Positions 23,177 through 39,801 of a stretch of DNA of 64,000 bases are shown here, in pieces. Positions within the stretch are counted from its first letter, which is position 1. Each line of letters opens with the position of its first letter. A model generated the notes under the pieces. That model was given only the letters and a program-made list of their open reading frames with translations, searched no databases and was not told where the DNA came from. The translations under genes were made by a program, and so were the position numbers. Source of the stretch: Defluviitaleaceae bacterium (GTDB lineage: Bacteria; Bacillota; Clostridia; Lachnospirales; WQUN01); NCBI GenBank assembly GCA_009781755.1, contig WQVD01000001.1:1-64000 (forward strand). Direction: 5' to 3'.

Positions 23177-25063
23177 TTATACCTTTTTGGCCGCGTCAAC
23201 GAGATAACAAATATAACGCTTGATGCTGGCCATGAATTTTTCGGGCTCTAGTTCGCCAGCGGCTATGCGTGACAAGCCGCGTTCCCATTTGCCGGTGGTT
23301 TCGGGTGATCGTAGCTCGGGCGGTACGATGGCGATGAGTCGCATGCCTTTTTCGGTAGGGATGAGGTTCTTTTTTTTGCGCTCGACGTATTTTGAGGCGA
23401 TGAGCTTTTCAATTATGGCGGCGCGGGTGGCGGGGGTGCCTAGGCCAGAGGCTTTGAGGGCTTCTTTGAGTGCTTCATCGTCTACGAAGCGGCCTGCATG
23501 TTCCATGGCGGACAGGAGGGTGGCTTCGGTGTAGGGCTTGGGCGGGGAGGTCTTTTTGGCGAGGACTTCGGCGGATTGGAGGGTTACGGTGTCACCCTTG
23601 GATAACAAGGGAAGGAGGGTATCGACTTCTTCGGTGGATTTATCGCTTGATTTTGCCTTTTTGCCGGATTTTTTTGCGGTATTTTCATCGGCGTTTGCAT
23701 TCGATTTATCGGTGCTTTTTTCATGCGCATACAATGCCGTCCATCCGGCGGATTTTTCCATCCGTCCTTTTGATTCGAAAAGATGCGCCACTTCTGCTTG
23801 GCACTTGGTTACCATGACGGTCACATCATAAACATGGGGTGGGTAAAATGCGGCAATGAAATTACGCAGGATACGATCATATACGGCGCGTTCGTCGGGC
23901 GTGAGCGCGGAAAGGGGTTTCTTGGAGCCGGTCGGGATGATGGCGTGATGGTCGGTGACTTTGGCATCGTTGACGATGCGGTTGGTGATGGGCAGCTTCT
24001 CCATCGCCAGCAAAGGCGCGGCAAATTCTTTGTACGGCTCGGTTTGCAAATTTTGCAACACGGCGGGCAGCTTGGGCGCCATGTCGGCACTTAAATAGCG
24101 GCTGTCGGTACGGGGGTAAGTGATCATCTTGTGCTTTTCATACAGGGATTGCGCCAGCGCCAAGGTCGTCTGCGCAGAGAAACCCAACTTGCGGTTGCAT
24201 TCGCGTTGTAATTCGGTCAGGTCGAAGAGTTGGGGTGCGGGAACGCGCTTTTCAGTGGTTTCGATGGATTCGATGGTGCAGGGGCGGCCGGATGTGGCGG
24301 CTACGATGGCTTCTGCTTTATCGCAATCGGGTAAGCGGTGCTTGTTTTCCTCGGCGACGGGGTTAAACCATGTGCCGCTATAGCATTCGCCGTTAAGCGT
24401 TTTGAATTGCGCTTCCACTTCAAAATATTCCTTCGCGTCGAAGGCTTCAATTTCCTTTTGACGCGTGGCAAGGATGCCCAGTGTAGGTGTTTGCACACGC
24501 CCCATCGGTAGCAAGTCATCGTGTCGCAGTGTAAAGGCGCGGGTGGCGTTCATGCCCACGAGCCAATCCGCCTCCGCCCTGCATCGCGCCGACGCAAATA
24601 AATTGTCATATGCCGTACTTGACTTCATGCCGGCCAAGCCTTTTTTTATCGCCGCGTCTGTTAGGCTGGATATCCACAACCGCTCGACGGGTTTTTTGCA
24701 TCGCGCCCATAAATATATGTATCGGAAAATCAGTTCCCCTTCGCGTCCGCTATCAGTGGCGCAAATAATGCGTTCGGTTTTGGGGTCGTTCATGATGTCC
24801 TTCAGCAATTTCAATTGCTTGATGGTTTTGGGGATGGGCTTCAAGTCCATTTTGTACGGCAAGATTGGCAAATCTGTCATGCGCCACTTCTTCAATGTGG
24901 GGTCATAATCCTCCGGCTCGGCCAATGTAGCCAAATGCCCAATGGCCCAAGAAATAACATACCCCTCGCCATGGATATATCCGTCGCCCTTGCCCGTGCA
25001 ATTTAACACCCGCGCAATATCGCGCCCAACGGATGGTTTTTCTGCAATAATTACCGTGCGCAC
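23177..25063 (-). CDS. topB: DNA topoisomerase III (type IA)
   Basis: 628 residues. The TOPRIM domain starts VIIAEKPSVGRDIARVL and includes the acidic ATDSGREGELIFRY motif; the active-site Tyr is in KMITYPRTDSRYL. Further blocks are MGRVQTPTLGIL and ATLLSAMEHAGRFV. A Lys/Ala/Ser-rich insert of about 45 residues (around 450-495) precedes the last domain and looks like a flexible linker. A GTG at 25063 with GGGGG five bases upstream gives the usual N-terminus; an upstream ATG adds 13 residues without a binding site. Relaxes negative supercoils and resolves replication or recombination intermediates. Confidence 0.93.
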   Translation of the reverse strand: MRTVIIAEKPSVGRDIARVLNCTGKGDGYIHGEGYVISWAIGHLATLAEPEDYDPTLKKWRMTDLPILPYKMDLKPIPKTIKQLKLLKDIMNDPKTERIICATDSGREGELIFRYIYLWARCKKPVERLWISSLTDAAIKKGLAGMKSSTAYDNLFASARCRAEADWLVGMNATRAFTLRHDDLLPMGRVQTPTLGILATRQKEIEAFDAKEYFEVEAQFKTLNGECYSGTWFNPVAEENKHRLPDCDKAEAIVAATSGRPCTIESIETTEKRVPAPQLFDLTELQRECNRKLGFSAQTTLALAQSLYEKHKMITYPRTDSRYLSADMAPKLPAVLQNLQTEPYKEFAAPLLAMEKLPITNRIVNDAKVTDHHAIIPTGSKKPLSALTPDERAVYDRILRNFIAAFYPPHVYDVTVMVTKCQAEVAHLFESKGRMEKSAGWTALYAHEKSTDKSNANADENTAKKSGKKAKSSDKSTEEVDTLLPLLSKGDTVTLQSAEVLAKKTSPPKPYTEATLLSAMEHAGRFVDDEALKEALKASGLGTPATRAAIIEKLIASKYVERKKKNLIPTEKGMRLIAIVPPELRSPETTGKWERGLSRIAAGELEPEKFMASIKRYICYLVDAAKKV

Positions 25064-25149
25064 ATTAACCCCCAATAAATTAAATAACGCGGCATTATAC
25101 ATGATTTATTGAAAGGATGATACGCATGCATAAAAGTAACGACATGTCA

Positions 25150-25378
25150 AGATGATGGCGATTGTAAATGCCGATTATACTTGCACCCGACTCAACAAGC
25201 CGCTGGCCAGCGCAGAGTCAACCATAGGTTTGTACTTTTATAGGGCCCTCCCTAGCAAGCGATAAACATACAAAAAAATAAAACCGGAAACAGCTAGCCA
25301 ACGATTCGTTATACGTGCACCGAATTATATGGCGGCTTCCCTTCTATCCTACACGATTTATTTGTGTAGGATTTTTTT
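25150..25378 (+). ncRNA. Candidate free-standing structured RNA
   Basis: The 460-base gap between topB and the nucleoid-protein gene has no convincing frame but many local pairings in one direction: GACTC...GAGTC enclosing CGCTGG/CCAGCG (25190-25223), TTTGTA...TACAAA enclosing TTTAT...ATAAA and AGGG/CCCT (25230-25282), GGCGATT...AATGCC, and a strong terminator at the end. Size near 200 nt and a terminator point to an independent small RNA. It does not resemble tmRNA, RNase P RNA or SRP RNA as I know them. A raiA-type RNA is a possibility because of size, taxon and conserved-looking unpaired tracts, but I cannot confirm it. Confidence 0.5.
25346..25378 (+). terminator. Terminator of the candidate structured RNA
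   Basis: ATCCTACAC and GTGTAGGAT form a nine-bp stem with a nine-base loop followed by seven Ts on the plus strand. No plus-strand protein gene ends upstream, so it most likely ends a non-coding transcript. Confidence 0.85.
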
Positions 25379-25458
25379 GAAAATTTGCAAAATTCACAAC
25401 AAGCCGGACAATCCTTCACCATGGCGCATTACGAACAACACCGCGCTCAATTTGCGCC

Positions 25459-25486
25459 TTGATAACGTTAAAAAACCCGTTATAAT
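25459..25486 (+). promoter_or_regulatory. Promoter of the nucleoid-associated protein gene
   Basis: TTGATA, 16-base spacer, TATAAT. The predicted start near 25493 leaves a short leader of about 30 bases. Confidence 0.75.
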
Positions 25487-25523
25487 ATCATCATGCAGTA
25501 AATAATCCTTGGGAGTGGTTTGA

Positions 25524-26513
25524 ATGGCATTGAATATAAAAAAGGCGATCTTGCATATTTTGCGCAGTGACGGTGCGCCGTCGGTTTTGTCACAGGTGGA
25601 GTTGGACATTGACAGTGAAGTTTGTGAAACTTTTATTTTAAAGCACGTGAAGAAATTGATTAACAACCCCGCCACGCGATCGGCTGTGTTTAAGCCGGAG
25701 TCGGCGGTTTTTTCCGTTTTGGGAGAATATCAAAGCGGTGCGGTGTATTTTAAAGAAACGAGTGTTGCGTTGGCTGAGCGGATGCTGTCGTTGATGGAGC
25801 GGTTCAAGAAGCTGCCGCCGTGCGATTTGCTGGTGGTACATATCGCCAACAAGGGTGCGGAGTCGTTGGCGATTGTAAAATTGGGTTATCAAGAAGTGTA
25901 CAACCACCAATCCAAGGATGCGGACAACCAATTGACCAAGTCTACGGCGTTGCCGTTTGCTACGGGCAAGGTGGAATATGCTTGTTTGATTGACCTAAGC
26001 GGTGCCGCCATGCCCATCCACTTGATTGAAAAAGCAGAGGTGTTGGAAGGCAACGCCGTGCCGTACTTCTCCGAGTTGTTCTTGGAGTGCGACGCGTCGC
26101 CATCCAAAAAAGAGCAGGCCAAGCATATCGATGAATTGAACAACGAATTTGTGCAAGAATTTTTTAATAACGACCCCAAAATGACCGCCAAGATTAAATC
26201 TGCGTTGGTGGAAGAAGCCGAAAATGAAGAAGGTTTTGTGTCCATTGACAATGTGGCGGCGCAGGTTTTTGCCGAGGACGAGGCGCAGAAGGCGCAATAT
26301 GTATCCACGCTGCGCGAGGCGGGCGTGGTTGCCGATGTACCCTTGGGCGAGCGTGTGGCGCGGTCGCAATTTGCCACGGCGCGCATCAAGGGTGACAATG
26401 GTGTGGAAATAAAATTCCCGGCGCATATGGCGGTGGACGAAGATGAAATTGAAATTACGACCCATGCGGACGGTACGGTGACGGTATTAATCAAGCGCTT
26501 GCGGTTGATGTAA
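25524..26513 (+). CDS. Nucleoid-associated protein, NdpA/YejK family
   Basis: 329 residues, the family's usual length. Begins IKKAILHILRSDGAP, followed by the SQVELDI and FILKHVKKL segments that mark this family. The C-terminal half holds an acidic helical region (EEAENEEGF) and a final beta strand-rich part. Family members bind the nucleoid, but the molecular role in Firmicutes is poorly defined. GGGAG site and own promoter. The kinase gene starts three bases after its stop. Confidence 0.8.
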   Translation: MALNIKKAILHILRSDGAPSVLSQVELDIDSEVCETFILKHVKKLINNPATRSAVFKPESAVFSVLGEYQSGAVYFKETSVALAERMLSLMERFKKLPPCDLLVVHIANKGAESLAIVKLGYQEVYNHQSKDADNQLTKSTALPFATGKVEYACLIDLSGAAMPIHLIEKAEVLEGNAVPYFSELFLECDASPSKKEQAKHIDELNNEFVQEFFNNDPKMTAKIKSALVEEAENEEGFVSIDNVAAQVFAEDEAQKAQYVSTLREAGVVADVPLGERVARSQFATARIKGDNGVEIKFPAHMAVDEDEIEITTHADGTVTVLIKRLRLM

Positions 26514-37344: not shown

Positions 37345-37936
37345 TTACGCAGCATTGAATGCCAAAATTGCCGGGCGGCACAAGGTGTCCGCGGGGGATG
37401 GTGCGATTATTTTGCGCTGGTTACCGCACGGACCGGTGCGGGTGTTGATAGCAAATATGGTTGCCGTGCCAGGATATGCACGCACGGTCGAAGATTACAT
37501 ACGAATCTGGAAAAACGCCCGGCAATTAAGAGGTGTTAACGCACGCGTGGCGCAGGCCATTTTGGGTGCGGAAATTGATTTGCGTAATTTCATTTGGATG
37601 TACCGCTTGAAAAAATACCGCGGCATCACTGGGGAAGAAGCATTTGGCAAGCTGGTGCCTGTGCGGTGGCGGTTAAAAAACGCTTGTTGGCGGCGATTGG
37701 TCAATGCTCCCGATGAAGTGGCATTGCTTGGTGCATTGGCCGATGGCCCATATGCGAAAATTTTCGGCTCCTTTGTGCGGCCGGAGCATGCATTAGATGC
37801 CGCCGTAGCGCGTGTATGCCACACAGAGGCTAAGCGTCACCCCCAATCAATTGCCGCATTATTCGGCTTCCTTTTAAAAGTGCCGGCTTCGCCTTATGTG
37901 GTGCCGGCTTCGCCTTATTTGGTGCCAACATGGTAG
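37334..37936 (+). CDS. V-type ATPase subunit C (NtpC/AC39), short form
   Basis: 200 residues against about 330-350 in normal subunit C. The central part ILGAEIDLRNFIWMYRLKKYRG followed by LVPVRWRL fits the AC39 repeat. The final 20 residues are generated by a tandem 21-bp repeat giving VPASPYV VPASPYL VP and look non-functional. GAGG six bases before ATG 37334. Subunit C connects the rotor D/F to the membrane ring, so its shortening matters together with missing D and F. Confidence 0.65.
   Translation: MRINYAALNAKIAGRHKVSAGDGAIILRWLPHGPVRVLIANMVAVPGYARTVEDYIRIWKNARQLRGVNARVAQAILGAEIDLRNFIWMYRLKKYRGITGEEAFGKLVPVRWRLKNACWRRLVNAPDEVALLGALADGPYAKIFGSFVRPEHALDAAVARVCHTEAKRHPQSIAALFGFLLKVPASPYVVPASPYLVPTW
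37880..37921 (+). repeat. Tandem 21-bp repeat inside the subunit C gene
   Basis: GTGCCGGCTTCGCCTTATGTG and GTGCCGGCTTCGCCTTATTTG, with GTGCC starting a third. The unit differs from the intergenic family 2 core GTGCCGGCTAAAGCCTTATTTG by only a few bases. It encodes the end of subunit C just before the subunit I start. Confidence 0.85.
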
Positions 37937-39801
37937 AAAAAATGACCTATGTAAACATCGTCGGGCACATCGGCAGCATGAACCATGTGGTAAACCGATA
38001 TTTCTCGCGGTACGACATCCAATTAGAGCCGGGTGAGACACACAGCGAAATGGAGCCCTTCTCCACGAGCAACCCCTATGCCGCCACGTTGCAAAAAGCA
38101 GAACGCTTCATGTTAATGATGGGTCATACGCCGCCGATTTTGCCCAGCATGGATACAGCAGAAGCCGTCAACCTCGTTGAAGACGCATATCGTTTGTACG
38201 AGGCGCGGGAAGAAGCCTTGCGTGCGCGTGAACATGCAATGACTCAAATGGAAGAATATCTGGCACGCATCGCTCCGTTTACGGCGATTATTGACGACTT
38301 GCGCAAGCTGGGTGAAAGTACGTTTCTTCATTATAAATGCGGTCGACTGGACACCGTGCATTACAAGCAATTCGAAACATTCAAGCACGAGGACGAAAAA
38401 ATTATATTCATCCCTACCCAACGCAACGCAGAGAGCGTGTGGGGGGTGTATTTTACGCCCATGCAGCACGCGCAAACGGTAGATGCGATATTCGCCGGGT
38501 TCAATTTTGAAGTGATTTCGTTGGAGGGTGAAGGATCGGCGGCGGCACGCGGGCGGTTGGCGCAAGAGGTGCGTAGCTTGTCGCAGGAGACACTGGCGCG
38601 GCTGGTTATCGAAGGGGTTAACCCCATGCGCTTGTTCGCAGCTTGTGCACATGTGCGCACGTTGTATAAAAAATTTGATGTAAAAAAATACGCCCGATTG
38701 AGTCGCGGGCGGCGTGTATTTGCGTTTTCCGGTTGGATGGGTGCGGACGATGCAAATGCATTGGATAAAGAAATGCAAGCAGATAATCTGCTCCTATTTA
38801 CCCTTGGCGAATCCAACGCAGGTGCCCCCACGCGGTTGCGCAATTGGCCTGTGGTGCGGCAATTTGAATTTTTCACCCTGATGTACGGCTTGCCGTCGTA
38901 TGGTGAGGCCGATCCGACATTTGTGTTGGCGGTGACGTATACGCTGTTATTTGGCTTGATGTTTGGCGATGTGGGGCACGGGATGGTGCTGGCGGCTTTG
39001 GGTGCTGTTTTATTGTGGATACATCGTAAACCGCTGGGGGGGATTGTCGCGGTGGTGGGTGTGTCGGCCATGGCTTTTGGGTTTTTATATGGCAGCATCT
39101 TTGGTGTGGAAACGATGTTGCCCGCTTTATGGCGGCGACCCGCGCAGGATATTACCGGGATGCTACTGTTCGCGGTGGGGCTGGGTGTGGTACTGGTGGT
39201 TATTTCGATGGGTATCCATATGTACAACGCGTTGTGTCGTAGCGATGTGGGTGCGTTTATTTTTAGCGCGAATGGGTTAGCGGGGTTGCTTTTTTATGGC
39301 ACGGTGGTGTTTGGGGCTGTGCAGGTGTGGGGTATGGAGGGGGCATTTCCTTGGTGGGTGCTGTCGTTCCCGTTGCTACTACTAGCTGCGAAATTTCCGC
39401 TGGAGGCATGGATGGCAGGGCGTAGTGTTATCCCAGAGGGTGGTGTGGGGGCATTTATTTTCCGCACTGTCATGGAAATATTTGAAACGCTGCTGACGTA
39501 TTTGACCAATACCATATCCTTTGTGCGGGTGGGGGCGTTTGCCATCAGTCATGCGGGCATGATGCATGTAGTGGTGCAATTGTCGCAGGGCACGCGTGGT
39601 GCCAGCAGTTTAATCATTTTTATTTTGGGCAATGCGTTGGTGATCATTATCGAGGGGTTGTTGGTGGCAATCCAAGCGTTGCGGCTTGATTTTTATGAAA
39701 TATTCAGCCGGTTTTACCGTGGGGGCGGGCGGGTGTTTTCATCGCACAAAATTAGTGGTTCGGACAATCCGCACCGCATTAAGGGAGCAGAACGAAGATG
39801 A
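37930..39801 (+). CDS. V-type ATPase subunit I (a subunit)
   Basis: 623 residues. About 300 N-terminal residues are cytoplasmic and helical (stalk contact); the C-terminal half has about seven to eight membrane helices with YTLLFGLMFGDVGHGMVLA, TISFVRVGAFAISHAGMM and EGLLVAIQALRLDFYE, the blocks around the conserved proton-path Arg. It forms the ion half-channels next to the K ring. Overlaps subunit C by seven bases; the ATG lacks a good binding site, so coupling is likely. Confidence 0.9.
   Translation: MVEKMTYVNIVGHIGSMNHVVNRYFSRYDIQLEPGETHSEMEPFSTSNPYAATLQKAERFMLMMGHTPPILPSMDTAEAVNLVEDAYRLYEAREEALRAREHAMTQMEEYLARIAPFTAIIDDLRKLGESTFLHYKCGRLDTVHYKQFETFKHEDEKIIFIPTQRNAESVWGVYFTPMQHAQTVDAIFAGFNFEVISLEGEGSAAARGRLAQEVRSLSQETLARLVIEGVNPMRLFAACAHVRTLYKKFDVKKYARLSRGRRVFAFSGWMGADDANALDKEMQADNLLLFTLGESNAGAPTRLRNWPVVRQFEFFTLMYGLPSYGEADPTFVLAVTYTLLFGLMFGDVGHGMVLAALGAVLLWIHRKPLGGIVAVVGVSAMAFGFLYGSIFGVETMLPALWRRPAQDITGMLLFAVGLGVVLVVISMGIHMYNALCRSDVGAFIFSANGLAGLLFYGTVVFGAVQVWGMEGAFPWWVLSFPLLLLAAKFPLEAWMAGRSVIPEGGVGAFIFRTVMEIFETLLTYLTNTISFVRVGAFAISHAGMMHVVVQLSQGTRGASSLIIFILGNALVIIIEGLLVAIQALRLDFYEIFSRFYRGGGRVFSSHKISGSDNPHRIKGAERR

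Follow-up and report, generated by a model that had tools for sequence, protein, structure and literature searches.

The best explanation for the intergenic DNA between a topoisomerase IA gene and an NA37/YejK-like gene in the window (the 64,000-nucleotide stretch of Defluviitaleaceae bacterium DNA analysed here) is that it carries, at about 25187-25378 of the plus strand, the gene of a free-standing noncoding RNA, which is one of the short members of a multi-copy family that is absent from Rfam, in which the same RNA occurs both as an mRNA leader and as a free-standing gene. We put the probability of this reading, which is drawn from sequence, at roughly 60%. The family, its structure, its promoter motifs, its terminators and its double use as leader and free gene were all found by computation, and the predicted RNA gene in the window appears on this evidence to be a real feature, as an earlier note on this DNA had observed.

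Boundaries and folding of the window RNA

The gap between the two flanking genes (25103-25523) contained no plausible protein gene, as the earlier note had reported, although its length is 421 bp and not the 460 bases given there. The intrinsic terminator described in that note was present, in a region where a scan found 4 terminator-like sites against 1.0 expected, and its end at 25378 stands as the end of the RNA; the start proposed at 25150, however, falls inside the promoter, and the start predicted from the -10 hexamer is near 25187 (Table 1).

Table 1. Positions of features at the window locus, and loci of a second structured RNA
Feature	Position	Strand	Basis or remark
Topoisomerase IA gene	23177-25102	-	left border of gap
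Upstream promoter element CATAAA (class B)	25129-25134	+	conserved in most of 12 class-B copies
TGTCAA box, exactly 25 nt before -10	25145-25150	+	genome-wide motif count
TATACT -10 hexamer	25176-25181	+	found at this position in 29 copies whose upstream DNA could be read
Predicted RNA, ~190 nt	~25187-25378	+	promoter and terminator positions, R3 match; 5' end placed from the -10
Domain D2: GACTC 25189-25193 with GAGTC 25215-25219, around CGCT-GGCC-AGCG 25201-25212	25189-25219	+	
Domain D3: TAGG 25225-25228 with CCTA 25251-25254; palindrome AGGGCCCT 25242-25249 in loop	25225-25254	+	
A-rich linker ACATACAA...AATAAAACCGG	25266-25287	+	conserved in alignment of copies
Variable 3' hairpin, predicted	25292-25337	+	single-sequence fold alone, z -1.6
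Intrinsic terminator ATCCTACACGATTTATTTGTGTAGGAT-TTTTTT	25346-25378	+	terminator scan
NA37/YejK-like gene	25524-26513	+	right border of gap
Second RNA, free-standing	L197 G000 C4:32935-; L201 C14:39732-; L204 C23:19418-; L209 C40:13711+		
Second RNA, leaders of DUF1659-like/DUF2922 pairs	L192, L193, L174, L175, L176, L159		

As the RNA lies on the same strand as NA37, which encodes a nucleoid-associated protein, with ~150 bp between its terminator and the first base of that gene, the window copy could be read as a cis leader or attenuator of NA37. This is very improbable, since NA37 has a promoter-like site of its own (TTGATA-16-TATAAT at 25459-25486) between the RNA terminator and the gene, no such RNA was found directly upstream of NA37 homologues in four sister species, and the gene that comes after a sibling copy lies on the opposite strand. 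At locus L084 the genes downstream of the family copy, bacA among them, are on the opposite strand, so that L084 is not a cis attenuator.

Folding energy gave z = -2.2 for 25150-25378, terminator included, and z = -0.4 for 25188-25337, terminator excluded. It was rejected as proof of structure because without the terminator the fold was no better than those of shuffled sequences; the window sequence alone is thus unable to settle the structure, and the case for a structured window RNA rests on its homologous copies.

The window copy was recognised as a family member by its D2 and D3 core, scoring 54.3 bits (E 2.3e-11) with a model, R3, trained without it, and its A-rich linker, one of the conserved-looking linkers of the earlier note, is kept in other copies. 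It lacks the 5' domain D1, with the motif AAGYC...GCTCT..CAAACG..CGTCCCTGCG...GRCTT, as does the copy L050 (on contig C10), and both carry GCACCCGACT.. directly 3' of the -10. As D1 is the most conserved part of the family, it may be that the window copy is derived or has kept no more than part of the function.

Copies, structure and promoters of the RNA family

BLAST with the region gave ten dispersed partial copies in its own genome (E 2e-16 to 3e-4), and full-length members proved to be ~330-430 nt long. These run in the order TATACT, a few nucleotides, D1, the D2 hairpin, D3, the A-rich linker and, after a variable 3' part, the terminator, with consensus GACTC..GGCC loop..GAGTC for D2 and NAGG..CCTN for D3. 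Pattern searches and a D1 model identified 28 D1 copies in the genome (E 1e-12 to 1e-41), with a mean D1 identity of 93% among own-genome copies. With a diverged copy on C14, the two copies without D1 (window and L050) and three cut by contig ends, the total comes to ~31-34 dispersed loci in 2.64 Mb, a count from which the true copy number may differ because contigs break inside copies. Such assembly breaks within family copies were seen at the G000 contig ends C10, C13, C19, C27, C28, C33, C37 and C50. Terminators were found in 17/21 complete full-length copies and in both short copies, against a background of 20%, and two of the four complete copies that lack one are leaders. Proteins flanking the copies were almost never common to different copies or species. 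One family copy has directly downstream of it an Rfam abiF RNA (38 bits; L102:1909-1945, G000 C9 ~37912-37948) and an Abi_2 protein gene.

Covariance among homologues, one of the checks named in the earlier note, bears the structure out. In the 13-sequence alignment of D1 across genera 93.5% of cells were paired, compared to 25-34% in slid controls, and both sides had changed in 21/31 pairs; because the A7 and A11 alignments, that of D1 included, had been fitted to the structure of the model, such pair counts are biased in its favour. Independent single-sequence folds of D1 from remote relatives mostly gave a similar rod of short stems, with L122 and L121 folding less cleanly than the others, and a natural internal deletion in L103 has removed part of D1 and kept its outer stems. 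The inner stem of D2 covaries at 4/4 pairs around the GGCC loop. The outer stem of D3 occurs as TAGG/CCTA, CAGG/CCTG and CAAG/CTTG in different copies and species, and its inner palindrome differs by species yet is self-complementary each time (GGGCCC, GGATATCC, GGGTACCC, GAGTACTC).

The D2 loop is invariant, unchanged in five species while the stem around it changes, and this could be explained if the RNA homo-oligomerises via its palindromic loops (GGCC in D2; GGGNNCCC and GTAC/ATGCAT in D3) to form a particle like those of OLE, ROOL and GOLLD rather than a decoy. The continued self-complementarity of the D3 palindrome is also in favour of such pairing, as is the precedent of the symmetric GGCC-type kissing loops documented in OLE (PMC12286853), which the D2 loop resembles. 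We consider it a rather unlikely alternative, as 12-base palindromes are not rare (27 in the 64 kb window) and the members are shorter than OLE, ROOL and GOLLD and have many different 3' parts. The likeness to those three, that of a conserved structured RNA of unknown function, is further qualified by the many copies per genome here, and their covariance models in Rfam gave no match.

No other known family accounted for the RNA. A search of Rfam 15 gave nothing real, either at the gathering thresholds or at a permissive one, which for the window copy and a single full copy admitted E values up to 10, and window copy, full copies and relatives were all without an Rfam match. Free-standing, structured RNAs of ~200 nt are known from Clostridia as raiA RNAs, and the RNA found here is likewise free-standing and structured, of similar size and from the same class; it differs in having no match to the Rfam raiA model, even at the permissive threshold. 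The earlier note had suggested a raiA-like RNA and listed 6S among the families to check, and with no Rfam match for the copies searched, 6S included, neither assignment is supported. Its broader proposal of a free-standing structured RNA, perhaps of a new class, is the one that agrees with the results: the RNA has its own promoter motif and terminator, covarying homologues and no Rfam match.

Upstream DNA was readable for 29 copies and showed two promoter forms, TTTTTCTTAGAA-N19-TATACT in 17/29 and CATAAA-N8-CATGTCAA-N25-TATACT or close variants in 12/29, with similarity among copies fading ~50 nt upstream of the -10. In the whole genome CTTAGAA-N19-TATACT occurs 15 times (control 0) and precedes a family member in 15/15 cases. 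TGTCAA-N25-TATACT also occurs 15 times (reversed control 1); 11/15 precede family members, the window copy included, and the remaining 4/15 lie ahead of a different structured RNA, likewise conserved and free-standing, which is called the second RNA below.

By analogy only, boxes at such fixed positions recall the regulons of response regulators, for instance that of CiaR and its streptococcal csRNAs, which comprise 2-6 copies of 51-202 nt (PMC3091779). Both groups are sibling small RNA genes with shifting genomic positions, own terminators and, at a constant distance from the -10, a box of the regulator type, for which there are two alternatives here. Unlike the csRNAs, the present RNAs number ~30 copies of 190-430 nt and double as mRNA leaders, and their boxes are CTTAGAA and TGTCAA, not the TTTAAG-N5-TTTAAG of CiaR control.

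Distribution, leaders and a second RNA

Among the genomes sampled the family appears confined to one, mostly termite-gut, family of Clostridia. Remote homologues in other genera were reached with a D1 model. The D1 model R2 had matches in 11/392 genomes of the order, all in Defluviitaleaceae (at least 8 matches each in G001 and G031, 6 in G022, 5 in G033 and 3 in G004). A search of 391 genomes of the class found nothing further, using the stricter filters of Infernal, with which weak relatives could be missed. Scanning 84,980 named genomes for the D1 pattern yielded eight true matches, all in termite-gut Defluviitaleaceae MAGs that probably come from the higher-termite set of PMC7024585. Phages, plasmids and viral contigs yielded nothing, the core pattern had no match in genome contigs or viral contigs, and when relatives were searched by BLAST with the sequence of the window locus, just short chance matches turned up outside its own genome. 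A D1-pattern match in Bipolaricaulota and an R3 match in G331, in an apparent ATP synthase gene region, were judged to be chance, and an R2 match in G006, which is without a promoter, is doubtful. In the Co191P1bin4 MAG the family RNA lies directly upstream of a serine recombinase gene (PF00239) at two places (L127 and L128).

Some copies in G000, G002, G004, G031 and G033 lead without a break into a ribosome-binding site and the 64-aa gene of a DUF1659-like protein (so labelled by resemblance, with no Pfam match). In intact pairs a 69-aa DUF2922 gene (PF11148) comes next. These leaders and the free copies have promoter, D1, D2 and D3 in common. Two points weigh against the main reading: neither DUF1659 nor DUF2922 has a solved relative or a known RNA-binding activity, and DUF2922 genes are present also in family members without this RNA.

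The second structured RNA (ACAACAAACGAAAGGCACTCCGCG..AGTCCCCTGCGTTTGTTGT), which is conserved, apparently unrelated to the first and without an Rfam match, is likewise both free-standing and the leader of other DUF1659-like/DUF2922 pairs (Table 1), which in G002 and G003 are under the promoter boxes described above. At L194 (G000 C2:49300-51000) four tandem small DUF1659/DUF2922-like genes follow a short leader, with an CTAAGAAAA repeat upstream, possibly a third arrangement.

The wide dispersal of the free copies may be explained in two further ways, by mobility or by descent from leaders, neither of which explains why promoters, D1 and terminators are constrained. Were the copies a non-autonomous mobile or selfish repeat, spreading promoter and RNA together, one would understand the ~30 dispersed loci with flanking genes almost never in common, the many copies at contig ends and the serine recombinase downstream of two relatives' copies. 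We regard this as improbable, since no terminal repeats were noticed, nor any transposase beside copies in the own genome; similarity starts at the promoter, ~50 nt before the -10, there is great divergence among copies on the 3' side of D3, and structure and promoters are under strong constraint. Slightly less probable still is that the free copies are relics of DUF1659/DUF2922 leaders after loss of the genes. The elements common to leader and free copies would fit such an origin, as would the loss of D1 from short copies such as that of the window, but exact spacing of promoter boxes, near-identical D1 and strong terminators are not expected in leftovers, and free copies occur also in G001, G003 and G004.

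A possible role for the leader and free copies

The reading of the window RNA as a free-standing gene of a dual-use family would allow the following mechanism. Each copy would be transcribed from one of the two dedicated promoter motifs and, leader-type copies excepted, end at its own terminator, while the same RNA forms the 5' leader of DUF1659-like and DUF2922 operons under the same promoters. A single regulator would turn on leaders and free copies at the same time, and the latter would bind a partner that acts on the leader; candidates are a small protein, perhaps one of those encoded by the operons, or another leader, reached via the palindromic GGCC loop. Copy dosage would thereby tune the small-protein operon in trans. 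That the copies are co-regulated, trans-acting and in competition with the leaders for a common binding partner is a tentative proposal, for which we infer expression, regulator, partner and effect; such titration would explain why leader and free copies have common domains and promoters. Its logic, extra RNA copies titrating the partner of an mRNA leader, is the one likeness to titrating RNAs of the CsrB/RsmZ type, from which the family differs in having no link to CsrA.

Equally tentatively, the two unrelated RNA folds might constitute a dedicated regulon, each being the leader of DUF1659-like/DUF2922 operons and also present as free-standing genes (for the first fold, ~30 of them in a single genome). 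Driven by common promoter motifs, the two would then work jointly as an RNA or RNA-protein machine of a kind not yet described.

The RNA family and its use as both leader and free gene are new, although relatives of the proposed logic (csRNAs and Csr/Rsm decoys) are already known. It is unusual for a structured RNA to be multiplied to ~30 dispersed genes plus mRNA leaders in one 2.6-Mb genome, and the family may offer a handle on two questions, the role of the DUF1659/DUF2922 proteins and the way in which a structured RNA shifts between cis-leader and trans-acting gene.
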